Assembly (NCBI GenBank): GCA_016218825.1
Contig: JACRCV010000051.1
Coordinates: 62,001 to 126,000 of the forward strand
DNA from: Deltaproteobacteria bacterium
GTDB lineage: Bacteria; Myxococcota; XYA12-FULL-58-9
Length of the DNA stretch: 64,000 bases
Direction: 5' to 3'
Below are positions 33,613-64,000 of the stretch, piece by piece. The position numbers and the translations under genes are program-made. How positions within the stretch are numbered: the first letter of the stretch is position 1; each line of letters starts with the position of its first letter. Under the pieces are notes generated by a model. That model did not search any database. It was not told the origin of the DNA and saw nothing but the letters and a program-made list of their open reading frames with translations.

Positions 33613-33823
33613 CGCCACCTCCCGCGCCCCGCCGGCGCGACCGCGGCGATGACCTCATAGCAGGCCGATCGCCGTTCGTCATCACGAGACAGACCCGCCT
33701 GGACCTTCGGTGCGCGTGTGCTAGCCTAAGTAGGCAAAATTCGGCGAAAAACTGCGGCGGTTGGCGCGCACGCACAAAGACGCGCCCTTTCGCTCAGTGC
33801 TGCTGGCAGCTAGAGGTGGTCAC

Positions 33824-39800: not shown

Positions 39801-41470
39801 ACGGCACCTGCATGCCGGGGTGCCTGAGCCTGGCGCCGCGCTGCGGCGACGGCACCATCCAAGCGGCAAACGGCGAGGCCTGCGACGACGGCCCGGCGAA
39901 CGACAACACCAGCTACGGCGGCTGCACGACGGCCTGCCAGCTCGGGCCGCGCTGCGGCGACGGCGTGCCGCAGCTCTCCTACGAGCAGTGCGACTTCGGG
40001 ATCGGCGGCAACGACGGCCAGCCGCCGAACCGCTGCGCCGCCAACTGCACCAGCACCGCGACCTGCGGCGACGGCATCCCGGACCCCGGGCGCGGCGAGG
40101 CGTGCGACAACGGCGCCGCCAACGACGACCTAACCTGCAACGGCTGCACCACGAGCTGCCAGCTCGGGCCGCGCTGCGGCGACGGCATAAGGAACTGCGG
40201 CGAGCTCTGCGACGACGGCAGCAACACCGGCGCCTACGGCGGCTGTACGAGCGGCTGCGCGGCGCTCGGCCCGTACTGCGGCGACGGTCAACAGAACGGC
40301 AACGAGCAGTGCGACGACGGCACGAACGCCGGCAGCTACGACGGCTGCAACCCGGACTGCACCAACGCCGCCACCTGCGGCGACGCGCAGCTCGACGCCG
40401 GCCACGAGCAGTGCGACAACGGGGTGAACAACGGCAACTACGGCACCTGCAACCCCGACTGCACCCTGCCGGCCTACTGCGGCGACGCGACGGTGCAGGC
40501 GCCGCCGGAGGCTTGCGACGACGGCACCAACTCCGGGGCTTACAACACCTGCAACGCCGACTGCAGCTGGCCGGACCGTTGCGGTGACAGCATCGTGCAG
40601 GCGCCGATGGAGGAGTGTGACGACGGCGTCAACAACGCCACCTACAACGGCTGCCGCTCCAACTGCCGCCTGGCGCCGTTCTGCGGCGACGGCGTCGTCC
40701 AGGCGGCCCTCGGCGCCGAGCAGTGTGACGGCACCGCGTTCGCCGCCAAGACCTGCATCGATCTGAACGGCAACGGTGTCGCCCGCGAGCCCGGCGACTT
40801 CGACGGCGGCGTGCTCGCCTGCAGCGCCGGTGTTTCCGGTTGTCAGCTCGACACCGCCGGCTGCTATCGCTGCGGCGACGGGGTGAAGAACGGCGTCGAG
40901 GCCTGCGACGCCGCCGATCTCGGGTCCGAGACCTGCGAGTCCCTGGGCTTCCCGCCGATGGCGGGCCAGGTCTTGAGCTGTCGCGCCGACTGCACCTTCA
41001 ACGTGTCGGGCTGCGACGTGCAGTTCTGCGGCAACGGCGTCCTTGACTCCGGCGAGGCCTGCGACGGCGTCGGCGTCTGCGGCGCCGCGGCGTCGTGTGG
41101 CGCCAACACCTGTCTGACGGTGCCGGGCGGCTACAGCGGCGGCACCCTCAATTGCCGCGCCGATTGCACGTTGGATCCGGCGGCGTGCGAGCGCTGCGGC
41201 GACGGCGTCAAGAACGGCACCGAGATCTGCGACGGCCAGGACTTCGGCGGCGCGACCTGCCTGAGCCTCGGCAAGGGCTACAAGGGCGGGCCGCTGGCGT
41301 GCAACGCGAGCTGCTCGGGCTTCGACGAGTCGGGCTGCTATCGTTGCCTGAGCTGCGCCGACTGCAGCTCGGGCCTGGCGTGCGTCGACCACCAGTGCGG
41401 CTCGTGTCGCACCGACAGCGACTGCTGCGCGCCGCTGGTCTGCTTCGGCGGCGAGTGCAGCATCTTCTAG
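33824..41470 (+). CDS. Giant cysteine-rich lipoprotein with fibro-slime domain
   Basis: A 2548-residue surface protein. The signal sequence ends GMSAC, a lipobox. Residues about 65-675 hold 12 repeats of about 50 residues with [11 protein letters not shown] and CxxGxxCxxxxDCxSGVC patterns. The rest has dozens of CGDG(x)nGEQCDDGxxN..GC units of the DUF4215 type. Residues about 1583-1902 form a fibro-slime domain ([53 protein letters not shown]). The C-terminus adds [13 protein letters not shown]. Probably a long disulfide-stabilised adhesin or matrix protein. ATG 33824 follows AGAGGTGG and the lipobox supports it. Confidence 0.88.
34019..35848 (+). repeat. Twelve tandem cysteine-rich coding repeats
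   Basis: A run of 12 diverged units of about 150 bases inside the giant lipoprotein gene, each encoding C-x-DG-x2[14 protein letters not shown]2-C-x-G-x2-C-x4-DC-x-SGVC. Base-level similarity between units is high because glycine, aspartate and cysteine codons are nearly fixed (GAC TGC GGC GGC), which could promote recombination and length variation. Confidence 0.85.
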
Positions 41471-41509: not shown

Positions 41510-42409
41510 TCAATGGCTCGCGAAGATCTGGACGCGGTTGTTGCCGCGATCAGCGACGACGACGTTCCCCTTGCCGTCCAGACAGATCTCGGTCGGGTAG
41601 TAGACCAGGCCTTCCACCCAGCCGAGACCGAGCTGGCGGCCCATGAACGAGCCGTCGTGGTTGACGACCGCCACCCCGTGGCCGTGCTGGTCGACCACGA
41701 ACAAGCGTCCGGCGGCGTCGCCGGTCAGGTGGGCGGGAAAGCTCAGGTAGCCGCTCAAGCTGTCGCCGACCTGGGCCCAGACCCCTTCCGGATCGAGGCG
41801 GAAGAGGGCCACGGTCTTCGCCTCGGCGGCATAGAGTGCGCCCTTGCCGTCGCTGTAGATCGCGGTGAACAGGCCGGGGCCCTTGGGGAAGGGGACGGCC
41901 CGGGTGAAGGCGCCGGTGCCGTCGAACGCCACGACCCGATTGCCGGCGCTGTCGAGGACATAGAGGCTGCCGGTCGCGTCGAGGGAGAATGCGACCGGCA
42001 GGATGATTGGGCTGCCAGGGACCCGCTTCATGTCGAGCGCGCCCTTGAAGGTACCGTCGGCGCCGACCCGGACGAGCTTGTGCGTCTTGCCGTCGAGGAC
42101 GACGGCGTCGCCGTGGTCGTCGAGCGCCACCTGCCGGGGGTACGGGAGCTCGGCGAGCTTGATCTCGACACCGGCGGTGACGACGCCGTTCTTGAGGGTG
42201 TAGCGCAGGAGGCGTCCGTTCTGGGTGTCGGCCACCAGGATGTTGCCGGCGGCGTCGCAGCCAACGCCTTCGGGCGCCGCGAGCCTAGCGCCCTTCTTGT
42301 CGACGACGATGACGGCCACCGGCGTGAAGCTGAGCGCGCCGGCCGCGGCCGGAGCGCTCGTGCCCAAGAGACCTGCGAGCGCAGCGAGGATGTGCGGCCG
42401 GATGCGCAT
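41510..42409 (-). CDS. NHL-repeat beta-propeller protein (exported)
   Basis: A 299-residue periplasmic or extracellular protein with a signal peptide (ILAALAGLLGTSAPAAAG). Repeats of the NHL/six-bladed propeller type follow: APEGVGCDAAGNILVADTQNGRLLRY, YPRQVALDDHGDAVVLDGKTHKLVRV, AFSLDATGSLYVLDSAGNRVVAF, YPTEICLDGKGNVVVADRGNNRVQIF. Such propellers often accompany multihaem cytochrome genes. ATG 42409 has GAGGAGGTG upstream; 5 bases separate it from the 16-haem gene. Last gene of the leftward operon. Confidence 0.85.
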   Translation of the reverse strand: MRIRPHILAALAGLLGTSAPAAAGALSFTPVAVIVVDKKGARLAAPEGVGCDAAGNILVADTQNGRLLRYTLKNGVVTAGVEIKLAELPYPRQVALDDHGDAVVLDGKTHKLVRVGADGTFKGALDMKRVPGSPIILPVAFSLDATGSLYVLDSAGNRVVAFDGTGAFTRAVPFPKGPGLFTAIYSDGKGALYAAEAKTVALFRLDPEGVWAQVGDSLSGYLSFPAHLTGDAAGRLFVVDQHGHGVAVVNHDGSFMGRQLGLGWVEGLVYYPTEICLDGKGNVVVADRGNNRVQIFASH

Positions 42410-42414
42410 GTCGC

Positions 42415-43686
42415 TCACCTCCTCTGCTCGACGTGGCACTGCGTGCAGAGCGTCGTGGTGGTGGGGTACGGGAACATGTTCTTGTACTCGGTGCCGTGCG
42501 CCCGATGGCAGCTCAGACAGTTGAGCGTCAGGTTGGGGTTGCGCGGGTCGCGGCGGCTGCCGCCGATCGGGTGGCTCTGGTGCTCCTTCCAGGAGTGGCA
42601 AACGCCGCAGACCTCGATGTCGGTCGCCCTCTTGAACAAGAGCGGCTCGTCGCCGGTGTGGGGGTCGTGGCACTTGACGCACTCGCCGTCCCGGATCGGC
42701 GGATGCTTGGTCACCGAGGCCGCCTGTCGGGCCAGCGTGTCGCGATGGCACTCGCCGCAGACGCTCTTGAGCTCGCCCTGCAAGAGCGGCTTGCGGCTGG
42801 AGGCGTGGGCCGCGTGGCAGTTGAGGCAGGCCGTGGCATTCGCCACTGGGCGATGCAGCCGGTTCTTGGCGAGCATCTTGCCGATGAGGTCGGCGTGGCA
42901 CGTCTGACAGAGCGCCAGCCCGGTCTTCTTGGGCTCGACGGGCTTGCCGGCCACGGGCGGGCCGTGGCACTGCGCGCAATTGTGCTTGGCGACCGGCTGG
43001 TGCACGTCATTGTACAACATGCCCGGCTGGTTCGAGCCGTGAGGATCGTGGCAGCTCGTACAGCGCGACTTGGCGACCGGATAGTCCATGTGCTTCTTGG
43101 CGAAGCCCGGCCGCTCCGCCTTGTGGCAACCAACACAGAGTCCGGGTACGGCCTGCTTCAGGAGCGCGCCGGCCTTGGTCGAGGCATGCGGGTCGTGGCA
43201 GACAGTGCATCCTTGGTCGACCACCGGCCGGTGCTTGCGCCTGGCGGTCGTTGCCGCCTCGGTGATGCGCGGGTGGCAGTCGGCGCAGAGGTCGAGCATC
43301 GGCTTGGTGAGAAGGTCCGGCTGGTCGCCGGCGTGAGGCAGGTGGCACTTCTGGCAGGCGCGCTCCAAGACCGGCGCGTGGGCGCTGGCGCGCTCCTTGG
43401 GGACCATCTGGTGACAACGGCCGCAGACCGCACCGCCGTCTTCCCAGAGCAGGTTCCGGGTGGTCGCCGCGTGCGGACTGTGACAGCCGATGCATTCCCC
43501 GCGCTTGATCGGCGTGTGAACCACCGGCTTCTTCAAGAGCGTCTCGACGTCGGAGTGGCAGGTGAGGCAGACCTTCCCCTTGCCTTCGGGGCGGAGGTTG
43601 AACTTCGGTGCGGCCACGGCGTCGTGCCACGATAAGCCGAGCGCGGCGACGAGCAAGGCGGCGCACTGGAGTCGCGTGTGGTTCAT
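42415..43686 (-). CDS. 16-haem c-type cytochrome
   Basis: A 423-residue exported cytochrome: signal peptide MNHTRLQCAALLVAALGLSW ending near DAVAA, then 16 CXXCH haem-binding motifs (CLTCH, CIGCH, CGRCH, CQKCH, CADCH, CTVCH, CVGCH, CTSCH, CAQCH, CQTCH, CLNCH, CGECH, CVKCH, CGVCH, CLSCH, CTQCH). Motifs come in the doubled-CXXCH pattern with CHDPH/CHAAH spacings and intervening histidines as second ligands. Probably a linear electron wire in the periplasm or inside the neighbouring outer-membrane barrel. Four bases after the 26-haem gene. Confidence 0.93.
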   Translation of the reverse strand: MNHTRLQCAALLVAALGLSWHDAVAAPKFNLRPEGKGKVCLTCHSDVETLLKKPVVHTPIKRGECIGCHSPHAATTRNLLWEDGGAVCGRCHQMVPKERASAHAPVLERACQKCHLPHAGDQPDLLTKPMLDLCADCHPRITEAATTARRKHRPVVDQGCTVCHDPHASTKAGALLKQAVPGLCVGCHKAERPGFAKKHMDYPVAKSRCTSCHDPHGSNQPGMLYNDVHQPVAKHNCAQCHGPPVAGKPVEPKKTGLALCQTCHADLIGKMLAKNRLHRPVANATACLNCHAAHASSRKPLLQGELKSVCGECHRDTLARQAASVTKHPPIRDGECVKCHDPHTGDEPLLFKRATDIEVCGVCHSWKEHQSHPIGGSRRDPRNPNLTLNCLSCHRAHGTEYKNMFPYPTTTTLCTQCHVEQRR

Positions 43687-43690
43687 GGCG

Positions 43691-45667
43691 TCACTTCTTC
43701 TTCACCGGCAGGTGGCAGGTGTCGCAGTCCCCGGAGGCGAAGGGCGCGTGCGCGTTCGCCTTCAAGAGCTTGGCGTTCTTGCCGGAGTGCGGATCGTGGC
43801 AGCTCTGGCAGGTCATCTCCTTGGCGTTGACACCGGCGTGCTTCCGGGTGAACTCGGCGTCGAAGTCGTGACATTGCCCGCACAGGGTCGAGGTCGGCTG
43901 CACCAGCATGCTCGGCTCACTCGAGCCGTGCGGCAGGTGGCAGACCAGGCAGTCGTCTCGCGCCGGCGAGTGGGCGGTCTCGGTCTCCTGCCGGGCGCGC
44001 AGGTCTTTGTGGCAGCTGAAGCAGAGGTCGGGGGCCTTGGCGGGGACGAGACCCCGCAGCGCGGCCTTGTGGGGATTGTGACAGCCGCTGCACTTGCCCT
44101 CGCTATAGGGTTTGTGGACGCTCATCGGCGTCATCGGCATGTCCTTCGCCTTCTTGTGACAGCCCGCACACACGTCGCCTTCCTTCTTGACCAGCATGCC
44201 GGCGTTGTTGCTGCCGTGCGGGTTGTGGCACTGCATGCACTGACCCTGGACGAACGGCTTGTGGCTGGAGCCGGCCTTGATCGGCTCCATGAGCTCGGCG
44301 TGGCACGGCCGGCAGAGCGCGGCGCCACCGGCTTTCAGCAGCTTGGCCTCGCCGGCGGCGTGCGGCGCGTGGCAGACCGTGCAAGCCCCCTGGGCCACCG
44401 GGCTGTGGATGTGGACCTTCACGAAGCCGACCTCGGCCTCGCGATGACAGCCGTAACAGACCGCGTCGACGCGCTCGCGCAGGATCGCCGGCATCGGTGA
44501 GCCGTGCGGGTTGTGGCAGACCGAGCAAGCACCGTTCAAGAACGGCGCGTGCTCCACTCGCAACCGCTGCTCGGCATTGACCTTGTCGTGGCAGCCCAGG
44601 CAGAGGGCCATCGCGGGCTTCTTGAGGAGATGCTGCTCCTTGGCTGCGTGCGGCGCATGGCAGGCCACGCACCCTGCTTCGGAGGTCATGACCGCGTGCT
44701 TCACCGGGCCGCTTTGACCCTGATCGGGGTGGCACGCGGCGCACAGGGTGTTCCCGGGCGCTTTGCGGAGGGCGCGTGACGACGACGCGTGGGGGTCGTG
44801 ACAGGTCGTGCAGTCGCCGTCTGCGAAGGGCGCGTGCGTGATGGCGCCGCCGGCGGCGAGGTCGGCGCTGTCGTGACAGTTGGCGCAGAGCTTGCCGCCC
44901 TGCTCGACGAGCGCGAACGGCTTGGCGGCGGTGGCGGCCTGGTGGCAGGAGCTGCAGTCCTTCGAGCGCACCGGGTCGTGGACCGAGGCGCGCAAGAGCT
45001 TGGCATCGTCCGCCGAGTGCGGATCATGACAGCCGGTGCAGATCCTGCCCGCCACCGGGTAGTCGGCGTGCGCCTTCTTGAAGCTGTCCTTGTCCGGCGC
45101 GTGGCACTTGACGCAGAGCTTGAGCGGGTCGCTGGTCAGCAGGTTCCTCTGGTCGGAGGCGTGCGCCAGATGGCAGGCGCTGCAGCCCTCCTTCTTCACG
45201 ACCTCGTGGACGAAGCGACCGGCGAAGGACTCCTTCTTGTGGCAGGCGAAGCAGCTGACCGAGCCTGCGGCGCGCAGGAGGTTCTTGGTTTGCGCGGCGT
45301 GCGGCTCGTGACAGGAGGAGCACTTTCCCGAGGCGATCGCTGAATGAACATTCTTCTTGTTCATGCCGATCGCGGTCTTGTTGTGGCAGTCGTAGCAGAG
45401 CTGCGGCTCGGCCTTCTTCAACAGGAGCTTGGGGACGAACCCGTGGCGCAGATGGCAGGTGTCGCACTTCTCGCCCTCGGCGGGGTCGTGCACTTCGGGC
45501 CGCCCGAGGACCTCGCTCACGAACTTCTTGTGACACTCGCGACAGCTCTTGGGCGCAAACTTCCGCCCGGCGGCGTCGGTTTCGGCCGGCCAAAGGCCGA
45601 GCCCGACGACGACGGCGGCGAGCGCCACCCGAAGCTCAAAGCGATCGCCGAACAAGCGCCTCAGCAT
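43691..45667 (-). CDS. 26-haem c-type cytochrome
   Basis: A 658-residue exported cytochrome with 26 CXXCH motifs counted from CRECH to CDTCH, about one per 25 residues, in repeating units of about 50 residues (HxPVxxGxCxxCHxPHxxxxxxLL...LCxxCH). Its signal peptide is FELRVALAAVVVGLGLW followed by ETDAA. ATG 45667 has GCGGAGG 12-13 bases upstream; an ATG at 45700 is in frame but overlaps the preceding gene and has no better site. With the 16-haem protein and the barrel it is the best candidate for a trans-envelope electron conduit. Confidence 0.92.
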   Translation of the reverse strand: MLRRLFGDRFELRVALAAVVVGLGLWPAETDAAGRKFAPKSCRECHKKFVSEVLGRPEVHDPAEGEKCDTCHLRHGFVPKLLLKKAEPQLCYDCHNKTAIGMNKKNVHSAIASGKCSSCHEPHAAQTKNLLRAAGSVSCFACHKKESFAGRFVHEVVKKEGCSACHLAHASDQRNLLTSDPLKLCVKCHAPDKDSFKKAHADYPVAGRICTGCHDPHSADDAKLLRASVHDPVRSKDCSSCHQAATAAKPFALVEQGGKLCANCHDSADLAAGGAITHAPFADGDCTTCHDPHASSSRALRKAPGNTLCAACHPDQGQSGPVKHAVMTSEAGCVACHAPHAAKEQHLLKKPAMALCLGCHDKVNAEQRLRVEHAPFLNGACSVCHNPHGSPMPAILRERVDAVCYGCHREAEVGFVKVHIHSPVAQGACTVCHAPHAAGEAKLLKAGGAALCRPCHAELMEPIKAGSSHKPFVQGQCMQCHNPHGSNNAGMLVKKEGDVCAGCHKKAKDMPMTPMSVHKPYSEGKCSGCHNPHKAALRGLVPAKAPDLCFSCHKDLRARQETETAHSPARDDCLVCHLPHGSSEPSMLVQPTSTLCGQCHDFDAEFTRKHAGVNAKEMTCQSCHDPHSGKNAKLLKANAHAPFASGDCDTCHLPVKKK

Positions 45668-45689
45668 GGGGTTCGGAGCCTCCGCATCA

Positions 45690-47471
45690 TCAGCTGCCAA
45701 TGCGCGTCAGGTAGATCTCCACCGGATAGGCGGCGCGAAGCTTCTTGCCCCAGTCGGCGAGGGCGACCTCGAGCTGCTCGGCGAACACCTTCTTGCGCAG
45801 CGCCTCCTGGATTTCCTCGAGCTCCGTGGCCTTCGCCGCGATCCGGCCCTCGACGATGACCACATAGTACACGCCGGCGAGGTTGTCGTACAAACGGTAG
45901 TCCCCCGCCTGGGCGCCGGTGAGCGCCGCGGCCAGGCCGCCGCTCAGGCTCTTGGTCGTGACCGTCGCGCTCGTGAGTTCCTCCGCCTGCTGCTCCTCGG
46001 AGACGCGCTCGGCGGCGTTCGCCCGCAGCCACCGGACGTCGGTGCCGGCGCGCAGCTTGGCAATGGCGTCCTCGGCGGCCGCCAGCGTGCGAAAGCCGAG
46101 GGTCGAGAGCTTCACGAACTCGGGGAGCATGTACTCGCTCTTGTGTTGCTCGTAGTATTCGCGGACCCGCTCGGCCGAGACCGCGATCTCGGGGATGACC
46201 GCGCGTCGCAAGAAGAGGTCGAAGACGAGAGAGCGCTCGTGCTCGGCGACCTTGCGCCGATAGCGGTCGGTGTTGGCGAGGCTCAAGAGCTCGGCCTCCC
46301 GCCTGCCCACGGCGGTGCGCACCATGCTCTCGAAGGTCGAATGCTTCTTGACGTTGACGCGCCGCTCTTTGACGCCGGCCTCGGTGCCGTGGAAGAGCTT
46401 CTTCTCGATCTGCGCCGCGAGATCGGCCACGGTGATCGATTCGCCGCCGGCAATCTTGGCCAGGACCCGCGCGTCCTTCAAGAGCGCCGCGAAGCCGGGC
46501 TTGGCCGCCTCGAGGTCGAGGTTCTTGAGGCGCTTGTCGTCGATGACGGCGTGCTTCTTGACCAGGTCCTCGAAGTATTTGCGCAAGAGCTCCGTGCTCT
46601 GGCGGTCGATCGACTGCTGCTCGGCCTGAGCCAAGAGCGCCGGGTTGTCGGGGTAACAGATCTCGACGAGCTGGATGACCGCGAAGCCGTCCGCGACCGC
46701 AGTGACCGGAGCGAGGCCCAAGGCCTCCAGGCCTTTGACGGCGGCGGCAATCGCCGGATGCAGGTCATTGAGGCGCATGCAGTTGGTGGCGCTGCCGCCT
46801 TTGGCCTTCTTGGTGCTCACCGCCCGGGTCGCCACCTCGGCAAACGGCTCTGCGGCCTGGAGCTGGCTCAGGGCTTCGCTCGCATCCTCGGTCTTCGCGA
46901 ACCACAGCGACTGCAGCTTCCACTGACGCGCCTTGTCTTTGTAGATGCGCTCGACTTCGTCCGGATCGGGTTTCACGGAGACCGTCACCGTGCGCTCGAG
47001 CTCGGCCTGGAGGAGGGTCCGCCGATACTGGGTGAGGCTCTCCTGAGCCTCCGGCAGCTCGTCCAGGCCCATCTGGCGCGCCTCCAGGACCGCGAGGCGC
47101 ACGTCGATGATCCTGTCGAGGATCGCTTTGAAATCAATAGCCTTTTCTGCGCTGTCGGTCGTTCGCTTCGCGTGCGTTGCCGCCAGGGCGAGGTTGAGCT
47201 CCTGGAGCAACACCACCTCGTCGCCGATTCTGGCCACGGGAGCTGTCTCGAACGCCTCCGCGAACAGGGGAGCCTGGAGGGAGACGGTGATCGTCGGCGA
47301 GCCCGCGGCCGGCGCCGCGGGCGCGGCTGTCGAGGTCGGCGCGACGGTCGGCGGGCAGGGGGCGGCCACGGCTGCCGGAGCGGCGCCCTCCCCCGCCGTA
47401 CAAGCGCCCAAGAGGAGGGTGAGCAAAGCGGTCGCGAAGCTCGGGCCGAGCCGTTTACGGGCGCGCATCAT
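45690..47471 (-). CDS. Parvulin-type peptidyl-prolyl isomerase lipoprotein
   Basis: A 593-residue SurA/PrsA-like protein with lipobox LLGAC (Cys24). Helical chaperone segments occupy most of residues 75-400, with DLAAQIEKKLF and LFLRRAVIPEIAVSAERVREYYEQHKSEYMLPEFVKLS leading into a parvulin-like domain (about 440-560: RTLAAAEDAIAKLRAGTDVRWL, SLSGGLAAALTGAQAGDYR, GVYYVVIVEGR). Probably folds the exported cytochromes or barrel. ATGATG at its start overlaps the previous stop, as at two other junctions of this operon. Confidence 0.85.
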   Translation of the reverse strand: MMRARKRLGPSFATALLTLLLGACTAGEGAAPAAVAAPCPPTVAPTSTAAPAAPAAGSPTITVSLQAPLFAEAFETAPVARIGDEVVLLQELNLALAATHAKRTTDSAEKAIDFKAILDRIIDVRLAVLEARQMGLDELPEAQESLTQYRRTLLQAELERTVTVSVKPDPDEVERIYKDKARQWKLQSLWFAKTEDASEALSQLQAAEPFAEVATRAVSTKKAKGGSATNCMRLNDLHPAIAAAVKGLEALGLAPVTAVADGFAVIQLVEICYPDNPALLAQAEQQSIDRQSTELLRKYFEDLVKKHAVIDDKRLKNLDLEAAKPGFAALLKDARVLAKIAGGESITVADLAAQIEKKLFHGTEAGVKERRVNVKKHSTFESMVRTAVGRREAELLSLANTDRYRRKVAEHERSLVFDLFLRRAVIPEIAVSAERVREYYEQHKSEYMLPEFVKLSTLGFRTLAAAEDAIAKLRAGTDVRWLRANAAERVSEEQQAEELTSATVTTKSLSGGLAAALTGAQAGDYRLYDNLAGVYYVVIVEGRIAAKATELEEIQEALRKKVFAEQLEVALADWGKKLRAAYPVEIYLTRIGS

Positions 47472-48700
47472 GGTCTTCCTTCCGTGGGCTCCAGGTGCTC
47501 GGTCTTGGCCGGGTGGACGTCGGATTGGGGCACCGTCTCCGGCGCCGTCGCCGACAGCTCGGCCAAGAGGGGCGGTGCGTTCTGGGCGAGCCTGTCAACG
47601 GCGGCGCTCGCCAGGTTGCAGACGAGCCCGGCCGCCGTCCGCTCGAGGCCGATGTTGAAGAACCAGACGCCGTCGTCGCCGAAGGCGAAGGACGTCGACT
47701 CGAACACCACCTCGGACGCCTCGCGCGGCGCTCCCCGATCGAGGAGGAGCGTCGAGAAGTTCACCCGCGCCGCCTGCGGCCCGCCGCGCCATTCCTCGTA
47801 GTCGAAGACCTCGCCGGTCAGGATGAGATCGGTCGTGCCCGCGGCAAACACGGAGCGGGCGGTGTCGAGCGACAGGCCCTCGGACAGGACGGTGCGGTAC
47901 TGGAGGAGCCACTGTCGCACCACGCCGGGCTCGACGACCTCGAACAGCGTCGAGGCCTGCAGTTGGCGTACGAACTCGAGGGCCACGACGTAGCCGGCGT
48001 CGCGGCGCGGCGTCAGGTTGCGGAAGGGCAGCACCGCCACCCGGTAGCGGCGCGTCGGGTCGAAGGCGGCGGCCACGGAGTAGGACCGCGGGTCGAAGAA
48101 GAAGCCGCCCGGGCACGGCTCGGCCCGGCGCTTGGCGCCGGCCAGGAAGAGCAGCAACGACTCCTCGAGGTGAACGATGGCCTGATCGCGGATGATGCGC
48201 GGGTCGTTGACGACGCCCAGGCTCAAGAAACCCGGATGGTCGACGCCGGTGAGCGGCATGCCGTCCACCCACAAGACGCGCGGTGGATCGGTCGCCGAGA
48301 CCAAGCGCATGGTCAACGCCAGCTTGGGCACGGCGTCGTCGGCGTAGCCGGTGATTGAAGTCACGAGGATGTCGGTCGCGCCCAGCTCTAAGGCGGCGGC
48401 CGCGGCGAACAGGCCGTCAACGTAGCCGGTGTTGCGCACCCGATGTCGTGCCATGAGCCCGAAGAGCCCGACCTCGTCTACGAGGGTCAGGTCGTACAGG
48501 AGCAGCCGCTGGTAAACCAGGTTCTGGATCTCGCTCAACGGCACCGGGCCGCCGGTCAGATTCTCGGGGGGCAGGACGGCGATGACCGTCGCGGCGGCGG
48601 GTCTTTGTGGGCCCGGGGCCGGGAGCGGTCTGGCCGACACGCAGGCGGCGACGCCGCAACAGCCGAGGGCGGCCATGGCGATTGTTCGGGTCGGCATCAT
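47468..48700 (-). CDS. Lipoprotein with two CsgG-like domains
   Basis: A 410-residue lipoprotein (lipobox VAAC, Cys20). Two related halves each begin with a CsgG/TolB-like strand: VIAVLPPENLTGGPVPLSEIQ near residue 39 and YRVAVLPFRNLTPRRDAG near residue 213, each followed by ATDILVTSITGYADD or TTDLILTGEVFDYEE. These are the features of CsgG/LpoB-type periplasmic domains, which in CsgG form an outer-membrane export channel. Whether this one makes a pore is unknown. Translationally coupled to its neighbours by overlapping ATGATGA. Confidence 0.7.
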   Translation of the reverse strand: MMPTRTIAMAALGCCGVAACVSARPLPAPGPQRPAAATVIAVLPPENLTGGPVPLSEIQNLVYQRLLLYDLTLVDEVGLFGLMARHRVRNTGYVDGLFAAAAALELGATDILVTSITGYADDAVPKLALTMRLVSATDPPRVLWVDGMPLTGVDHPGFLSLGVVNDPRIIRDQAIVHLEESLLLFLAGAKRRAEPCPGGFFFDPRSYSVAAAFDPTRRYRVAVLPFRNLTPRRDAGYVVALEFVRQLQASTLFEVVEPGVVRQWLLQYRTVLSEGLSLDTARSVFAAGTTDLILTGEVFDYEEWRGGPQAARVNFSTLLLDRGAPREASEVVFESTSFAFGDDGVWFFNIGLERTAAGLVCNLASAAVDRLAQNAPPLLAELSATAPETVPQSDVHPAKTEHLEPTEGRP

Positions 48701-49521
48701 CGCGGCGAGCTTGGTGCCGGCTCCGGTTGCGGCTGTGGCTGAGGTTGAGGTTGAGACTGGGGCTCAGCCCGCGGCGCGAGCTCCTCGATCACGGCCGGCT
48801 TCGCGTCCGACGGTGGCGCGGCCGGCTCTTCGGGCGCCGCCGCCGGCGCGGCCGGGGCCTCGGTGCCTCCTTCGAACAGCGCATCGATGAGGGCGCGCAC
48901 CGCCTTCTCGGTGACGATGTTCATCGGCTGGCCGCCGCCGCCCAGCATCCGCTCGAAGATACCGACGCCGCCTTTGGTGGTCTGACCCGACCAGACCACC
49001 TTGCCGGTCTGGGTCTCGATCATCTTGAGCCCCATGGAGATGGCGTTGGCGGTAGCGGCCGCGGAGTGCAGCTCGCCGTACTCCTTGATGACGCCGGTGA
49101 TGAGGGCGTCGGCCGAGATCATCGCGCCGAGCTTCTTGCTCTCTTCGACGGTGGGATTGTCGGCGGCCACGAGGCTCAGCCGGGCGATGCCGCGCGAGAC
49201 CTCGCCTTCGGGCACGACGTAGAAGCTGCCCTCGGCGCGCAGCATGTGCGCCACGACGTCGCGGACCCGAAGCGCCGCCAGCTGGTCGCGGGACAGATTG
49301 GCGAAGGGCAGGACGGCGATCGTGCGAATCGCGCCAAAGTCCATCTCGGGGTCGTGATACGGTCGCGTGTCCGTTACAATGGGCGCGCAGGCCGAGGCCA
49401 CGAGCACGCAGACGGCGAGCGCGAGCCCGGCCAAGGCGATCGCCGGCTTGACTCTCTCCCGGTCACGATGCAGCACGCTCATGGTTGGGAAACGATGCTC
49501 GCCGAAAACGGAACGCATCAT
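48697..49521 (-). CDS. CsgG-like lipoprotein
   Basis: A 274-residue lipoprotein (lipobox VASAC, Cys45). The domain IRTIAVLPFANLSRDQLAALRVRDVVAHML, YVVPEGEVSRGI, ADALITGVIKEYGE and MGLKMIETQTGKVVWSGQ follows the CsgG/GNA1162 pattern well. The C-terminus is low-complexity (PAAPAAAPEEP and a QPQPQP run). ATG 49521 is chosen because ATGATG overlaps the preceding stop exactly as at the next two genes and GGTGG precedes it; ATG 49482 would give a more usual signal-peptide length. Confidence 0.75.
   Translation of the reverse strand: MMRSVFGEHRFPTMSVLHRDRERVKPAIALAGLALAVCVLVASACAPIVTDTRPYHDPEMDFGAIRTIAVLPFANLSRDQLAALRVRDVVAHMLRAEGSFYVVPEGEVSRGIARLSLVAADNPTVEESKKLGAMISADALITGVIKEYGELHSAAATANAISMGLKMIETQTGKVVWSGQTTKGGVGIFERMLGGGGQPMNIVTEKAVRALIDALFEGGTEAPAAPAAAPEEPAAPPSDAKPAVIEELAPRAEPQSQPQPQPQPQPEPAPSSPR
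48716..48766 (-). repeat. Short tandem repeat coding for Pro-Gln
   Basis: Six-base units of the type CAACCT/CAGCCA/CAACCG repeated about eight times near the 3' end of the CsgG-like lipoprotein gene, encoding PQPQPQPQPEP. Such arrays can change length by slippage in multiples of two residues without shifting frame. Confidence 0.6.
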
Positions 49522-51725
49522 AATACCACCATCAGGTTGCACGCAAACGTGCTGGCGCGCGTGCGGATAGGCTCGGTGTCGACAAAGGCCAGGGTGTAGG
49601 TCGCGTTGGTGACGATCTTGGGAGCGATTCGCCAATGCAACGACGGTGAGAAAGTCCTCGAAAACGCGCGAGAAAGCGCATCGACCGACTCGGCGTACGA
49701 GAAGTGGAGCTGGAGAGCGCCGCCCGGGAAGGGTGAGAAGCCGCCGCTGTAGTTGCCGAGCCAGCGGGGGCGCTCGCGGGTGGCCCAGGAGCGGGTGACG
49801 TTCGCGGCCAGATACAGCGCCGAGATCGGCGCAAAGGCCGTGCTGGCGTCGACGCCCTGGGTCTCGAAGCGCCGGCGTGGCAGGCCGGCGCCCCACTGAT
49901 CGCTCAACGAGTAGCGCAGGCCGCTCGTGAGGGTGAAGGTCGGGTGCGGCGCCAGCGACACGGACACCGTGGCGCCGGGGCCGGCCGAGCGCCGACGTTT
50001 GACCACGGCAAAGTTGTAGAAGGCGCTCGTGCCGGCGGCGACGCCCGGATAGAGCTCGGCGGTGCTGGACAGCGTCAGGGAGTTGGTGGTGCCCGAGCGC
50101 GTGGCACCGCCGTTGACGGCGCCGCTGTAGCCGAGGTTGGCGTTGAGGTTGGCGACCGGCGAGCCGGCGAGCGAGCTCGAGTAATCGAAGGCCCAGTCGT
50201 GTCCGAGCCGGGTCAGCGTGTCGAGGCGGGCGGCGCGGACGCCGAGCCCGAGCCAGGACAGGAGGTTGCGGCTGTACGACAGGCCGTTGCGCGCTTGATA
50301 GACCGCGTTCCGCTCGGGCAGGAGCTGGTTGGCCGCCGACAGCGTGAGCTCGTGGAAGAACGCCTCCGAGGTCATGAGCCGCGTGCGCGCGCTGGCGTTG
50401 ACCACGGTGTTGAGGCTGTGGGTGCTCGTCGGGGCGCGCCGGACCGGCAGCATCGAGAAGAACTGCACCTCGGTGACGTTCACGTCGGCCACGTCCAGGA
50501 AGGCGGCGTAGTTGGCCGGCAGCGGCCTTGCGACGACCTTCAGAAAGCGGGCCCGGGTGTCGTTGAAGCTCACCTCGAAGCGGTCGGCGAAATCGGCAAA
50601 GATCGTCGAGCCGCCAAGCGCCACGCTCTGCCAGGTGACGTTGTCGTTGCTGGAGTAGACCGAGAAGACGAAGGCCGAGGCGACCTCGACGGGCACTGTG
50701 CGGTCGACCCAGACGTAGACGGTGTTGACGCTCTCGGCGAGCTCGGAGAACTCGGCGCCGAAATGGCGATTGGCGGTGTCGCCCAGGCGCGACGGGTTGT
50801 AGCCCAGGTCGATGTTGGCGGAGGCCGAGAGGTTGCCGTCGGCGAGCGCCGTGTTCGGAATGAGCGTGCTCGACGCCGGCGTGGCTGGGAAGCGCTCGAC
50901 GAGCGACAGGCCGCTGAGCGGATACTGCTGCGTCGCGGTCGTGCCGGTGGCACCGGTTGCCTCGGTCGAGGTACGGCCGTGATTGATGGCGGCGTTGGTC
51001 GCGAGGATGACACGGTCCTCCCAGAGGGTCGTCATGTAGCTTCCGCTCGTCGTCTGGGTGAACTGGCTCAAGTCGAGGTGGTGCACGCGATCGGCGGTGT
51101 CGGCGTAGCCGAGCGCGTACTGGAGGGTGAGCGGCCGCGGCGTGTCGTAGAAGGCGTCGAGCTTCACGCTGTTGCTGGTCTGATCCTGGACGGCGTGTCG
51201 GGCGTCCCAGGTCGTCTGGTGGTCCAGGCGAAGGTTGACGCGCGGCGGCCCGTCGGGCGTAAAGCTGCCGTAGCCGCCCATGACCTCATTGGTGAGCGTG
51301 CGGCTGGCGAAGGTCGGGTTACGGCTGACCTGCTGCCGGCGGCGGTAGTCGGCGCCGGCGGTGAACGTGTCGCTCTGCCAGACCAGGTCGCCGTAGACGT
51401 TTGCGAGCCGAGCCTTGGTGCGCGTGTCGAGGTCTTCGCGGGTGGCCCAGGTGTCGGTGAGCTGGAGGAGGCCGCCGGCCCCGGCGCGCAGGGTCTCGGT
51501 GAACTCCCGCGCCAACGACAGACGATAGCGCTGGTCGAGGGTGTCGTTGCGACTGCGGGTGGTCGTGTCGCGGTCGTTGTCGGTGGTGTCAATGATGCTG
51601 ATGGTCCCGGTCGGCTCGACGCCGAGGCTGGCGTCTCCACGGGCAACCCCCGGGGCTGACGCCGCCAGGGCCGCAGCCCAAAGCCGGATCCGTGGTGCCC
51701 GGATGCGTGGTGCCAACGTCGTCAC
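49518..51725 (-). CDS. Outer-membrane beta-barrel (porin of cytochrome conduit)
   Basis: A 735-residue exported protein (signal peptide ending GVARGDASL) rich in alternating amphipathic strands and ending in a run of aromatic/hydrophobic strands, as in large beta-barrels of the MtrB/PioB type. Residues about 315-420 form an inserted domain resembling F5/8 type C (discoidin): FVFSVYSSNDNVTWQSVAL, RFEVSFNDTRARFLKVVARPL, YAAFLDVADVNVTEVQFF. It sits between a propeller lipoprotein and CsgG-like lipoproteins upstream of two giant cytochromes, so it probably houses a cytochrome across the outer membrane. Start is GTG 51725 with GAGGG upstream. Confidence 0.75.
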   Translation of the reverse strand: MTTLAPRIRAPRIRLWAAALAASAPGVARGDASLGVEPTGTISIIDTTDNDRDTTTRSRNDTLDQRYRLSLAREFTETLRAGAGGLLQLTDTWATREDLDTRTKARLANVYGDLVWQSDTFTAGADYRRRQQVSRNPTFASRTLTNEVMGGYGSFTPDGPPRVNLRLDHQTTWDARHAVQDQTSNSVKLDAFYDTPRPLTLQYALGYADTADRVHHLDLSQFTQTTSGSYMTTLWEDRVILATNAAINHGRTSTEATGATGTTATQQYPLSGLSLVERFPATPASSTLIPNTALADGNLSASANIDLGYNPSRLGDTANRHFGAEFSELAESVNTVYVWVDRTVPVEVASAFVFSVYSSNDNVTWQSVALGGSTIFADFADRFEVSFNDTRARFLKVVARPLPANYAAFLDVADVNVTEVQFFSMLPVRRAPTSTHSLNTVVNASARTRLMTSEAFFHELTLSAANQLLPERNAVYQARNGLSYSRNLLSWLGLGVRAARLDTLTRLGHDWAFDYSSSLAGSPVANLNANLGYSGAVNGGATRSGTTNSLTLSSTAELYPGVAAGTSAFYNFAVVKRRRSAGPGATVSVSLAPHPTFTLTSGLRYSLSDQWGAGLPRRRFETQGVDASTAFAPISALYLAANVTRSWATRERPRWLGNYSGGFSPFPGGALQLHFSYAESVDALSRAFSRTFSPSLHWRIAPKIVTNATYTLAFVDTEPIRTRASTFACNLMVVL

Positions 51726-51734
51726 GCTTTGCCC

Positions 51735-53162
51735 TCAGCTCCGCTCGCCGGCCACGACACAGAGCACGGGCTCGTGCGCGGTCTCGAACCGGCCGAGGAG
51801 CCGGCGGCTCGTCAGCGACAGGACGCGCACGGTACGGAGGGCGGTCTGCACCAGAAAGAGGTTGTCCTCGGCGTCATCGACGAGGAAGTACGCCACGCTC
51901 GCACCGGCGTCGAAGCCGCCGCTTTGCAGCTGCGAGCCTGGCAGATACTCGGCGACCCGGTGCTCGGGATCCATGGCGACGTAGAGGCGATCGGCGCGCC
52001 GGTCGACGGCGATGGCGCTCATGCCCAGGCCGGCGTAGAGGCTCTCCGACAGCCCCATGCCGGGCACCGAGAGCACCAGGACGTTGGGCGAGGTCTGGTG
52101 GGCCACGTAGAGGCGGGTGCCGTCGCGGCTCAACTGGGCCCGAATCGGCCGGGGGTCGGTCGGGACGGTCAAGACCACCGCCTGGTTGGCGAGGTCGATG
52201 ACCGACAGGCTGTTGCCGAAGGTGTTCACCACGTAGGCGCGCGCGCCGCTCTTGTCGACGACGATCGTCGACGGACGCTCGCCGACCTGCAGCCGCCCGA
52301 CCTCCACGAGCGCCTGCGGATCGACGAAGGCGACGCTGCTCGAGCCGCGGTTCACCACGAGGAGGAGCCGACCGGCGTGGGTCAGCGCCAGCTCGCGAGG
52401 CTCGTCGCCGGTCCGGAGTGGCACGCGCCCGACCTCGGCGCCGCTCACCAGGTCCCGGGCCTCGATGACGTCGGCGCCGCTCGCGGCCACGTAGAGCCGG
52501 CCGGCCTCGGCGTCGACCGAGAGCCCCCAGGGCTCGCGCCCGGTCGGCCAGACGGCGACGGTGCGGCGGGTGTGCTTGTCGAAGACCGTCACGGTGTCGG
52601 ACGTGGGGCTCGAGCAGAAGCCGGCCACCGCCGGCAGGGCCGGGTTGGGCAGGCGGCCGGTGAAGCGCGGCGCAAAGGAGAAGCCGCTGGCGACCGACTC
52701 GGCGACCTTCAGCTCGAGGTACGCCAGGGTCATCTGGCCGCCGGCCACCTGGAACGGCAGCTCGATGGTCGTGGGCGCCTCGGGAAGCAACAGATCGCCG
52801 GTGCCGCCATCGCCGGCGATGGTGGCCCGGGCGACGTCGAGCGCCACACCGACATAGCCGCCCGGCGGCACCCGCCCCCAGGCCCACAAGAGCGGGTCGG
52901 TCATCGAGCCTTCGTTGATCTCCTTGCGCAGCACTTCGAGCGGCACGCGCGTGCCGTCGTCGCGTTCGGCGGCCATGCCCCGCACCGAGAAGGCCAGGTC
53001 CGTCGAGCTCTCGGAAACCGGCTCGAGGTAGAAATAGACGGCGCCTTGATCACCGAGGGGCGGCAGCACTCTGATCGGGGTCAGCCCGGGCATGCACCCC
53101 GCGAGCAAGCACAGGACGGCGCTCACCGCGAACCGGCGTTCGGGGGCAAAGAGGATAGACAT
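51735..53162 (-). CDS. YVTN/YncE-type beta-propeller lipoprotein
   Basis: A 475-residue lipoprotein (lipobox LLAGC). Residues about 25-165 form an N-terminal beta domain (GAVYFYLEPVSESSTDLAFSVRGM; VPPGGYVGVALDVARATI). Residues about 180-475 are YVTN-type propeller blades: TVTVFDKHTRRTVAVWPTG, PWGLSVDAEAGRLYVAASG, RPSTIVVDKSGARAYVVNTFGNSLSVIDL, RAQLSRDGTRLYVAHQTSPNVLVL. Propellers of this kind are frequent partners of cytochrome and porin genes. ATG 53162 is selected by the lipobox; the stop lies 9 bases before the barrel gene. Confidence 0.82.
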   Translation of the reverse strand: MSILFAPERRFAVSAVLCLLAGCMPGLTPIRVLPPLGDQGAVYFYLEPVSESSTDLAFSVRGMAAERDDGTRVPLEVLRKEINEGSMTDPLLWAWGRVPPGGYVGVALDVARATIAGDGGTGDLLLPEAPTTIELPFQVAGGQMTLAYLELKVAESVASGFSFAPRFTGRLPNPALPAVAGFCSSPTSDTVTVFDKHTRRTVAVWPTGREPWGLSVDAEAGRLYVAASGADVIEARDLVSGAEVGRVPLRTGDEPRELALTHAGRLLLVVNRGSSSVAFVDPQALVEVGRLQVGERPSTIVVDKSGARAYVVNTFGNSLSVIDLANQAVVLTVPTDPRPIRAQLSRDGTRLYVAHQTSPNVLVLSVPGMGLSESLYAGLGMSAIAVDRRADRLYVAMDPEHRVAEYLPGSQLQSGGFDAGASVAYFLVDDAEDNLFLVQTALRTVRVLSLTSRRLLGRFETAHEPVLCVVAGERS

Positions 53163-53259
53163 GACGGCAAGATCCCGCACCTGGACCCCGGCCGGCAAGC
53201 GGAAGATCCGCGCCGCGGCGGCGCAATCCGTGGGCCGCAAAGCTCGGCCTTGGGGGCCG

Positions 53260-55185
53260 TCAGTCACGCGGGCTCTCCGGTCGGGCGAGGGCGGCGTCGC
53301 CCAGGTATCTGGCGACGAGCGGCGCGAACCCGGGATGCGCGCGCAGGGGCGCCAGGTCCACGTTGTTGGCGAGCGCCGCGGCGTTCCGGAAACCCATGCC
53401 GAGCGCCGTCTCGAGAAAGGCCAACCCGGCGGCTGGCTCGCCGGCAAGGCCCGCGACCGCGGCCCGATTGATTTCGACCACCGCCGAGTCCGCGCCGCTC
53501 AGGGCCGCCTGGCGATAGCTGTCGCGGGCGAGCTCGAGCCTGCGGGTGCGCAGATAGACGTCGCCCAAGAGCGCGTGCGCCTGGCCCGCGGTGGGCCGGA
53601 GCGCCACGGCGCGCTTGAGCGGCAGCTCGGCGGCGGCGAAGTCATGGGCGGTGCTGTAGGCCAGGCCGAGGTTGTATTGCAGCTCGAAGTAGTCCGGGTT
53701 CAGTCGAACTCCGTCTTCGAGCAGGGCCAAGGCCTCCGGCAGCTCACGACGTTTGATCAGGTAGCCGGCGAGGTTGGCGCGGGCGTCCTTGGCCGTGGGG
53801 TCGTAGGTCACGGCGCGGCGGTAGGCCTCGAGCGCCTCCTCGTCACGACCGACGTCCTGGTAGGAGTGGCCAAGCTGGTACCAGGCGGCGGCCGAGAGCG
53901 GCATCTTCTGGACGGTGTCGGTCCACAGGGTCAGGTCGTTCTCCCAGACCGCGACGCGGGCGCGGCTGGTCGAGGCCATGGCCGCAAAGAGCGTGCCGGC
54001 CGCGACCGCGAGCCCGAAGCCCGCGCTGCGCCGTAGCGGCGTCGTCTGACCGCGGATCTGCAGGGCGGCTGCCGCAACCGCGGCGCCGGCCAGGGCCGCG
54101 GCGCCGAGCATCGGAAAGTAGAGGTAGCGGTCGTTCATGAGGGTAATCAGCGGCACGATTTGGGAGACCGGCAGGAGGCCGATGAAGAACACCGCGTACC
54201 AGAAGAAGAGGGCGCGCGCCCGGCGCCAGAGCAGGACGCCGGCAGCGGCGAGCGCGAGCCACAGGAGGAGCGAGACAGCGACCGCGGCATCGAGGCTCGT
54301 GTGGATGGGCACGAGGTAAAGGACAGACTGAGCGCTCGGCCAGGCGAGGAGGCCCAGGTAGCGCGGCAGGACGGTCAGCATGGTGAGCGCGGTCGCGAGG
54401 GGACCGCCGCCGTGATACGGCACCCGGCCGCCGCCGGTCTCCGGCGCCTGGCCGACGATGCCAACCATCGCAAAGAGCCCCGCGAGCACCACGAACGGCA
54501 GCTTGTCGGCGAGCCAGCGCCATCCCGGCGGCCGCGGGCTCCCGCAGAGGTCGTAAGCGGCCAGGATTACGGGGAAGATCACGGCTACCGACTTGGCGAG
54601 GAGGGCGGCGATGAAGGCCAGGAGGGCGAGAGCGTACCAGGCCCGCCGGCGGCGCGGCGCGGCCTGGCGGTAGCTCAGATAGGCGTGGAAGGCCGCGAGC
54701 GTGAAGAGCATGGCCAACAGGGTCTTGCGCTGCGAGATCCAGGCGACCGACTCCACCTGCACCGGATGCAAGAGGAAGACGAGCATGGCCGCGAACGCCC
54801 AGAGGCGGTTGCCGGTGAGTCGGACCACGAGCCCGCTGAAGAGGAGGCCGCACGCCGCGTGCAGCACGCCGTTCTCCAGGATCATGGGCCCCGGCCGCTC
54901 GCCCCAGAGCGACAAGTCGAGCGCGTAGGACAGGAGGTGCAGGGGCGCGTAGTTGCCGAGGTAGAACTGCGACAGGATCTGGACGAGGTGCTCGACCGTG
55001 AGCGCGTGCAGGAGCGGATCCGTGAGGATATACGGCCCGTCGTCCATGTTGCGCAGGAAGGCGTGGCCGAGCGCCGGGGCGTAGACCAGGAAGGTCAGCC
55101 CGAGCGCGGCGACGGCGAGGCCGACGCCGAGCAGGAGGCCTTGCCGGCTCGGGTCGAAGAACGATGGCGGGCTCAGCGGTCGCAC
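53260..55185 (-). CDS. TMTC-like membrane protein with TPR repeats
   Basis: A 641-residue protein. About ten membrane helices occupy residues 15-395, with the first external loop containing RNMDDGPYILTDPLL (acidic pair typical of GT-C glycosyltransferases) and WISQRKTLLAMLFTLAAFHAYLSYR and LLAKSVAVIFPVILAAYDL, as in TMTC-type O-mannosyltransferases. Residues about 415-640 are TPR repeats (AWYQLGHSYQDVGRDEEALEAYRRAV, ARANLAGYLIKRRELPEALALLEDG, AHALLGDVYLRTRRLELARDSYRQA). Could glycosylate exported proteins, perhaps cytochromes. GTG 55185 is the likely start; TTG 55239 lies before a terminator hairpin and is unlikely. Confidence 0.75.
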   Translation of the reverse strand: MRPLSPPSFFDPSRQGLLLGVGLAVAALGLTFLVYAPALGHAFLRNMDDGPYILTDPLLHALTVEHLVQILSQFYLGNYAPLHLLSYALDLSLWGERPGPMILENGVLHAACGLLFSGLVVRLTGNRLWAFAAMLVFLLHPVQVESVAWISQRKTLLAMLFTLAAFHAYLSYRQAAPRRRRAWYALALLAFIAALLAKSVAVIFPVILAAYDLCGSPRPPGWRWLADKLPFVVLAGLFAMVGIVGQAPETGGGRVPYHGGGPLATALTMLTVLPRYLGLLAWPSAQSVLYLVPIHTSLDAAVAVSLLLWLALAAAGVLLWRRARALFFWYAVFFIGLLPVSQIVPLITLMNDRYLYFPMLGAAALAGAAVAAAALQIRGQTTPLRRSAGFGLAVAAGTLFAAMASTSRARVAVWENDLTLWTDTVQKMPLSAAAWYQLGHSYQDVGRDEEALEAYRRAVTYDPTAKDARANLAGYLIKRRELPEALALLEDGVRLNPDYFELQYNLGLAYSTAHDFAAAELPLKRAVALRPTAGQAHALLGDVYLRTRRLELARDSYRQAALSGADSAVVEINRAAVAGLAGEPAAGLAFLETALGMGFRNAAALANNVDLAPLRAHPGFAPLVARYLGDAALARPESPRD

Positions 55186-55201
55186 CGCGAAGAGAAGACA
55201 C

Positions 55202-55235
55202 GATGGGCCGGGGCACGACGGTACCCCGGCCCATC
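55202..55235 (-). terminator. Rho-independent terminator of the omcS-like operon
   Basis: A perfect 12-bp stem GATGGGCCGGGG / CCCCGGCCCATC with a 10-base loop, followed on the leftward strand by a pyrimidine-rich TGTCTTCTCTT. It lies 16 bases after the cysteine-rich lipoprotein gene and just before the next leftward gene. Confidence 0.75.
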
Positions 55236-55250
55236 TCAATCAGCTCGAGA

Positions 55251-58200: not shown

Positions 58201-58355
58201 AGCTGCGCGGTGTAGTTCCCGCCGCCACTGTAGTCGAGCCCCGGCTCGGTGCCGGGCCCCTTGGTGCCGCTCACGCCACACGCCGCGGCCAGCAGGCCGA
58301 CAGCGATGGCACTCAAGAGTGCCTGGTTTCTAAATGCCTTCTTCGTATTTCGCAT
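55251..58355 (-). CDS. Cysteine-rich lipoprotein co-transcribed with the OmcS-like cytochrome
   Basis: A 1034-residue lipoprotein (lipobox LAAAC). Residues about 30-250 form a beta-rich N-terminal domain without cysteines (YTAQLNADYAGYSINRGEG; LDINSWGPAVQESGSVTYT). Two or more Ig/bacterial-repeat-like strand sets follow (VQKVGNGSGTVTS; VTITKIGNPNGAGNITATG), interleaved with cysteine-rich blocks (CTADSECVITTGTAYC), and the last 450 residues carry DUF4215-like CGDGxxxxxEECDGG units. It may bind or anchor the filament at the cell surface. ATG 58355 has GGAGAG upstream. No haem motif. Confidence 0.85.
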   Translation of the reverse strand: MRNTKKAFRNQALLSAIAVGLLAAACGVSGTKGPGTEPGLDYSGGGNYTAQLNADYAGYSINRGEGTLGIGIRPLAGSLDINSWGPAVQESGSVTYTAPDGRGAIVLAAVEFGIKEHIKVFEPQVDEIELNWELTLDRGLTAKLERDGSLAVYDESGVVQYAMPAPVIYDVAGLEVSADAAHFELFATGNDSVQTLRLVTQGAMLLSYPIDIDPTTFVKAAFLTVQKVGNGSGTVTSVLPATSPITCGADCRVAWDNAVAVGDITLTAAPDAGSAFVKWSASIAGNCAPVTTAAYTCTAQPTGTCNLGAPCTADSECVITTGTAYCMFTPTGYCYGGTGATANTGAFCRVNADCTGAGTPTCAVNNGSAVPGYCSASTCGAGSCTLKVGAYCVKDADCKGNSAGTGTCRLTDCSGTALTTTVGFFASSANQPEARARTCYAQFEPSNYTVTITKIGNPNGAGNITATGTGGPWDCDTIAGPGWTTCAIQAARGTVVTLQPVSADDNLFGGFGGACSGSGQCVVQLTGNRSVDVAFAPVCGDGVVVRGSTVGNVVWPEQCDGSNFDTRCDPATATINIGGVCAADVDCGGAVGSCAAVTAGNGCQFLGFQNGTLSCTNTCLYDTSACSNATFCGDGLVTAPEECDGGVPVGTDCTAFGFTAPGVLACNNALCRWDFAGCWGVTAGEKCGDGVAQGDEQCDHLAGICAGGEREGMPCTLDGECPNSTCRVEVLDTNLATCESIGFEPSGSCTTGSKLGEFCYTDEDCRDVLGGVGICTITNAATGALACHENCVFDVDSCRTCGDGLLSPGEVCDGSLYTKGAATCVNDGATTGAACVIGGAPCANGGTCTLQFRLGLLNGATCYGLGRGTGQLRCKPDCTDYDYSQCTTNGLATAGDNVRQYPETCDGTDLSTISTSLAVPLTQNCQTLGYLGGTLMCLNQAYNTSACCGDGNIRGVCTAVNGAAILGSSCLATADCGGAPGVCTGLQSCDGNLAATANSGINNKTCVNYSGSSTFTAGTLQCMPYCSFDTRLCY

Positions 58356-63310: not shown

Positions 63311-64000
63311 CGACCCGCGGCCGCGTGTTCCTGTTGGACGACGACGATCTGATCGTTTCGATGCTGGCGCGAGCGTTGTCCGGCGAGGGGTACGAAGTCA
63401 GGCCGGAGACCGACCCTGAGGGCGCCGTCGACAAGATCCGGCAGTTTTCCCCCGACGTGGTGCTCCTGGACATCAAGATGCCCGGCGCGAGCGGCATGGA
63501 GATCCTGAAGGAGATCACCGGCCAGGCCCCCGGCACGCAGGTCGTGATGCTGACGTCGGATGACAGCGCCAACACCGCGGTGACGGCGATGAAGCTCGGG
63601 GCGGTGGACTACCTGACCAAGCCCTTCGACATCGACGAGGTCAAGATCGTCGTCGCCTCGATCATGCAGAAGGCGAGCCTGATGCACGAGGTGGAGTATC
63701 TGCGGCGGGTCACCGCCGACCTCACCCACAAGGAGCTCCTCGGCACGTCCCCCGCGATCAACGAGCTCAAGGCTCGAGCCGAGAAGCTGGCGGCGGCGGG
63801 CGTCCCCACGGTGCTGATCACCGGAGAGAGCGGCTCGGGCAAAGAGGTCATGGCGCGTTTCATTCACGCCCTGATGCACCGCGGGGCTGCCGGCGGCCGC
63901 GCCCCGTTCATCGGCATCAACTGCGCAGCCCTGCCGGAGCCCTTGATCGAGAGCGAGCTCTTCGGCCACGAGGCGGGCGCGTTCACCGATGCCAAAGCCG
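63307..64000 (+). CDS. Sigma-54-dependent response regulator (partial)
   Basis: The first 231 codons of an NtrC-type activator, cut by the window end. Receiver domain at 5-120 with acidic DDDD patch and phospho-acceptor D55 in [12 protein letters not shown] and K in LTKPFD. From about 150 the AAA+ domain starts: [10 protein letters not shown], Walker A GESGSGKE, and the sigma-54-contacting loop, here GAFTDA instead of GAFTGA. With the upstream kinase it forms a two-component system expected to activate a sigma-54 promoter, perhaps of the OmcS-like operon. Confidence 0.93.

Follow-up and report, generated by a model that had tools for sequence, protein, structure and literature searches.

The window analysed here, a 64,000-nucleotide stretch of bacterial DNA, very probably carries an omcS-companion (osc) cluster together with omcS itself, and with them the apparatus by which OmcS nanowires are folded, exported and maintained. 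The identification follows from an eight-gene order that is the same as in the published cluster, matching gene types at each position, a 26-haem protein at position I, the linkage to OmcS, and PelC-like proteins at positions F and G. The first-pass annotation had read the block as a new architecture of electron conduit; this is not supported, since the block matches the published osc cluster GSU2500-GSU2493, and the locus is a further copy of a known machine and no new kind of conduit. What was claimed as new is now placed within a known nanowire assembly system, and the pairing of a 26-haem with a 16-haem protein is seen to be a fixed part of the osc system across three groups of bacteria.

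Gene content and organization

In G. sulfurreducens an eight-gene block, GSU2500-GSU2493, lies downstream of the OmcS-type genes (GSU2501/omcT/omcS), and GSU2495 encodes a 26-haem cytochrome of about 70 kDa (mBio 2026, PMC12977616); as cited in that paper, Shen et al. 2025 linked the block to OmcS maturation and secretion. A second report names the operon osc, for omcS companion, and designates GSU2495 and GSU2494 as OscI and OscJ, both listed as periplasmic; it gives OscH a role in folding, OscE, OscF and OscG roles in secretion, and OscD a role in morphology (Front Microbiol 2026, PMC13194489). Our match to the G. sulfurreducens block uses these published gene numbers and positions together with the sequences of other Geobacteraceae, and the gene types of the window fall on the osc positions, with a propeller at D, three export genes at E, F and G, an isomerase at H and 26 haems at I. 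The host is an uncultured bacterium, probably a relative of Anaeromyxobacter; its genome is 6.5 Mb with about 70% G+C, and the genes of the locus are as follows.

41510-42409, minus strand: K, equivalent to GSU2493, an NHL beta-propeller that ends the block (NHL, E 1e-17)
42415-43686, minus strand: OscJ equivalent, 16-haem cytochrome c (16 CXXCH counted)
43691-45700, minus strand: OscI equivalent, 26-haem cytochrome c (26 CXXCH counted)
45690-47471, minus strand: OscH equivalent, PPIC-type prolyl isomerase lipoprotein (Rotamase_2, E 7.5e-17; lipobox LGAC)
47468-48700, minus strand: OscG equivalent, PelC/CsgG-like lipoprotein (PelC profile match; N-terminal lipoprotein signal)
48697-49482, minus strand: OscF equivalent, PelC/LpoB/GNA1162-like lipoprotein (Pfam and profile matches; lipobox ASAC)
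49518-51725, minus strand: OscE equivalent, a putative beta-barrel of the outer membrane that contains a discoidin/CBM32-like segment (homologues in osc loci)
51735-53162, minus strand, ATG at 53162: OscD equivalent, beta-propeller lipoprotein (Lactonase/YVTN repeats; lipobox LAGC)
53260-55239, minus strand: TMTC-like protein, a candidate glycosyltransferase with a polytopic GT-C-like half and TPRs (TPR Pfam; DD motif)
55251-58355, minus strand: Cys-rich large lipoprotein (lipobox AAAC)
58406-59794, minus strand: OmcS, hexahaem nanowire cytochrome (phmmer to PDB 6EF8/6NEF)
59824-60801, minus strand: N, beta-propeller-like secreted protein (neighbour-gene homologues in relatives)

The nine leftward reading frames from K to the TMTC-like gene are open at these coordinates and show operon-like packing: neighbouring genes from D through K are separated by -11 to +35 bp, and 97 bp lie between the TMTC-like gene and D. 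In its inventory the first-pass annotation was accurate: the two giant cytochromes with 42 haem motifs between them, the PPIase, the two propellers, the two CsgG-like lipoproteins, the TMTC-like protein and the adjoining nanowire gene are all recovered, the context of extracellular electron transfer is right, and the gene content does differ from those of MtrCAB, OmbB-OmaB-OmcB and ExtABCD. The functional unit is bigger than these nine genes, however, and takes in omcS; propeller N is probably also part of it. The product of N has no match in Pfam; in almost every relative whose flanks reach far enough, a homologue encoded next to omcS or K is 33-47% identical to it. The density of haem motifs is apparent in the DNA itself, with 50 matches to TGYN6TGYCAY in the window against 2.6 expected (the largest count among DNA shuffles is 7), 42 of them within the I and J genes.

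The D protein is 31-43% identical to the D gene product of every complete cluster that we found, and K is 35-45% identical to its counterparts. F matches GNA1162-like (E 1.9e-9) and LpoB (E 1.9e-7) families in Pfam, and in profile searches GNA1162 (4hrv, E 8e-7) and PelC (9h80, E 1.7e-5); G matches PelC (9h80, E 7e-7) and PelC orthologues. By these matches both are members of the CsgG/LpoB/PelC-like superfamily. We note that the F lipoprotein of the window ends in a Pro/Ala/Gln-rich tail of 60 residues that occurs in no relative. On inspection of the sequences D, F, G and H carry lipoprotein signals; the signal peptides of I and J are of the plain type.

OscE is a putative outer-membrane beta-barrel, and it has no barrel match in Pfam, NCBIfam or PDB. 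Residues from about 322 to 425 give a weak CBM32 match (E 0.022, profile against PDB), and this discoidin/CBM32-like segment is resolved better than any other part of the protein in an AlphaFold2 model of low overall confidence (pLDDT 28.6, pTM 0.23), computed from a two-row alignment of the window and Geomobilimonas luticola proteins; the 26-haem protein, modelled from an alignment of the same kind, scored pLDDT 30.7 and pTM 0.15. Counting alternating hydrophobicity across 21 barrel homologues gives 17 peaks, some of them within the discoidin-like segment, a measure too crude for a strand number. Homologues of OscE are found in 17 other genomes of the window's phylum, as well as in Geobacteraceae and Nitrospirota, and in none of the seven other genomes of the window's own class.

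Rightward-transcribed genes lie on both sides of the cluster. Directly downstream and convergent with it (33761-41470, plus strand) is a gene for a giant, Cys-rich secreted protein of 2569 aa with DUF4215 repeats. On the other side (60951-63999, plus strand) are genes for a PhnD-like periplasmic binding protein, for a HAMP histidine kinase (start at 61856) whose sensor half holds a single CXXCH haem motif, and for an NtrC-like regulator. The kinase and regulator are perhaps a redox-sensing regulatory pair for the nanowire genes; we considered them as a conserved part of osc and rejected this, the pair having clear relatives in the locus of just one relative within the limited flanks compared.

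Conservation of the cluster

We surveyed 20 kb around barrel homologues of the window's phylum and around OmcS genes in Geobacteraceae. The same gene order, which the first-pass annotation had proposed to seek elsewhere, is present in full (D-E-F-G-H-I-J-K) at 28 loci in 25 other genomes of these two groups, including Geomobilimonas luticola, and also in one Nitrospirota metagenome-assembled genome (MAG). The I protein has 26 CXXCH motifs in all of the complete clusters, in one of which a frame break divides the gene 7+19; J has 16 in all except one, which has 15. Such invariant haem numbers call for a structural reason, for example a fixed periplasmic span.

Wherever a cluster has sequence upstream of D (27 complete loci and the Nitrospirota MAG), an OmcS-like gene of the same orientation lies there, no more than 1.5 kb away, in 28 of 28 cases. 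D follows the OmcS-like gene straight away in these clusters, or after a short gap that would fit at most one gene, whereas in the window two genes intervene between D and OmcS; among the clusters compared, only the window has a Cys-rich lipoprotein gene and a TMTC-like gene between omcS and oscD. The Cys-rich lipoprotein has no Pfam match, and partial matches only, in six of 194 other genomes of the phylum.

In a tree of the concatenated proteins the nine Geobacteraceae clusters group together with full support, and the ten clusters from the window's phylum lie together on the opposite side. The longest branch is that of the window, whose exact position has weak support (86). The Geobacteraceae relatives are 22-59% identical to the window for the D-K genes. 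Three relatives each have two complete osc clusters (L033/L034 in G049, L037/L038 in G040 and L039/L040 in G041), and the paired clusters have different OmcS-like genes.

OmcS and its paralogues

The OmcS protein of the window matches PDB 6EF8/6NEF across the whole mature chain (phmmer, E 4.6e-141) and is 61.2% identical to 6EF8, keeping every one of the 12 haem cysteines and all but one of the 17 histidines; among the genomes compared, the OmcS closest to that of G. sulfurreducens (6EF8) is 72% identical to it. In a tree of OmcS proteins the window protein falls in a set of 22 rows that includes G. sulfurreducens OmcS, with 99% support. Like the proteins of the 6EF8 and 6NEF structures it has six CXXCH motifs, the N-terminus FHSGGVAECEGCHTMH, and His16 together with 15 other histidines; it differs in being about 29 residues longer and in the replacement of His 139, which is not part of a CXXCH motif. 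We take His16 to be the inter-subunit haem ligand of OmcS. The window protein is predicted to share the OmcS arrangement of six CXXCH haems with bis-His ligands, including the ligand that is contributed by a neighbouring subunit (PMC6584659).

OmcS homologues have previously been reported in Anaeromyxobacter dehalogenans (PMC10954620). What OmcS filaments do physiologically is disputed (PMC11077965). Two further six-haem OmcS-like paralogues are encoded on the same contig about 7 to 10 kb rightward of omcS (L047:1995-3299 and L047:3951-5132), and nearby lie a further gene of the TMTC-like type and another sensor kinase with a CXXCH motif.

A proposed model for OmcS export and electron supply

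The homology, gene order, haem counts and OmcS linkage described above are observations made here, and the roles of OscD to OscH are taken from the literature. Pel export uses PelC as its ring lipoprotein; in MtrA, 10 haems span about 80 Å. In the model that we propose, OmcS subunits would be secreted into the periplasm and then loaded with haem, and their folding there would be aided by the lipoprotein isomerase OscH. They would leave through an outer-membrane channel in which OscF and OscG, as ring-type lipoproteins, combine with the barrel OscE, in an arrangement that may resemble PelB-PelC or CsgG, and the lipoprotein propeller OscD, at the surface, would shape the growing filament. An E-F-G channel, an H chaperone and a lipoprotein propeller D fit the PelC-type profiles of F and G and the lipoboxes and signal peptides of the proteins.

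OscI and OscJ would be soluble periplasmic cytochromes, most likely passing electrons to the base of the filament, and their fixed length suggests that they may be periplasm-spanning wires. If 26 haems were stacked as they are in MtrA they would extend about 200 Å, which is near the width of the periplasm, and the constant count could then act as a ruler.

TMTC-like genes and a possible role in filament glycosylation

The TMTC-like protein has two features of TMTC/GT-C proteins, a DD motif in the first loop (NMDDGPYI in the window) and a C-terminus of TPRs, and it has no match to a GT-C family in Pfam. The DD motif, as described for GT-C enzymes (PMC7801869), is kept in all relatives that cover the region. 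In the 18 osc-bearing genomes of the phylum, 21 of 73 TMTC-like matches lie no more than 20 kb from an osc barrel against 0.7 expected, a count in which tandem copies and kinship make the matches non-independent and which fragmented genomes lower; 11 of the 18 genomes have such a gene within that distance. The loci concerned are the window (53260-55239), L029, L030, L034, L041, L042, L043, L044 and L047, and within the fetched flanks there is no TMTC-like gene in the Geobacteraceae clusters.

OmcS and OmcE filaments bear surface glycosylation (PMC9473688). The clustering of TMTC-like genes near osc loci suggests that they encode a candidate nanowire glycosyltransferase, a reasonable guess given the enrichment, the DD motif and the glycosylated filaments. 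To our knowledge the enzyme that glycosylates OmcS and OmcE filaments is still unassigned, and TMTC-like proteins would, if the guess is right, supply it. We regard as doubtful the fuller proposal that in this phylum the TMTC-like GT-C/TPR proteins put sugars on OmcS or on the Cys-rich surface lipoprotein; the recurrence of these genes beside osc nonetheless offers a testable candidate for nanowire glycosylation.

Comparison with known systems

The locus could be read as a porin-cytochrome conduit, as the first-pass annotation proposed, in which case the 16- or the 26-haem protein would sit inside the OscE barrel as MtrA does in MtrB. The best PDB profile match of both OscI (E 2e-31) and OscJ (E 7e-21) is 6r2q_A, which we take to be the MtrA chain of an MtrCAB structure in spite of its different record name, and an OscE-type protein of barrel size, about 700 residues, is encoded with both haem proteins in every cluster. 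The 6r2q_A match is weak evidence for an MtrA role, however, because haem-repeat profiles match any protein dense in CXXCH. OscE itself has no match to MtrB_PioB in Pfam and none to any barrel in PDB, and MtrB_PioB (PF11854) is absent from the whole host genome; the cluster has no MtrC- or OmcB-like surface cytochrome apart from OmcS, and none of the nine genes encodes a surface multihaem lipoprotein. F and G, moreover, are PelC-like export proteins, and OscE to OscG are assigned to secretion in the osc report (PMC13194489). We therefore think it improbable that the block is a conduit of this kind; OscI or OscJ may also touch the barrel. The resemblance to MtrCAB consists of dense CXXCH repeats that match the MtrA chain and a barrel-type protein encoded nearby; the osc block differs in that it lacks a match to MtrB_PioB, has 26 and 16 haems rather than 10, and includes lipoproteins of secretion type.

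It is most improbable that the block is a Pel-like polysaccharide exporter that stands beside cytochrome genes by neighbourhood alone, as, despite the PelC matches of F and G and the weakly matched CBM32-like segment of OscE, the block lacks a polysaccharide synthase or hydrolase, both giant cytochromes are constant members of it, and every complete cluster whose upstream sequence is available has OmcS there. The published work on osc is reported to show that OmcS secretion is lost when oscE/F/G are deleted. PelB-PelC export (PDB 9h80, 5t10 and 5t11) is similar in that PelC-like lipoproteins are encoded beside a putative outer-membrane barrel, and differs in that the osc block has no Pel biosynthesis genes and that its cargo, according to the literature, is a cytochrome filament.

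The closest counterpart is the osc cluster of G. sulfurreducens, with which the window shares eight genes in the order propeller, three secretion genes, PPIase, 26-haem cytochrome, multihaem cytochrome and last gene, adjoining OmcS. The differences are that the window has a single OmcS ahead of the block, two extra genes, for the Cys-rich lipoprotein and the TMTC-like protein, between omcS and oscD, and an F protein whose Pro/Gln-rich C-terminal tail is absent from its relatives.
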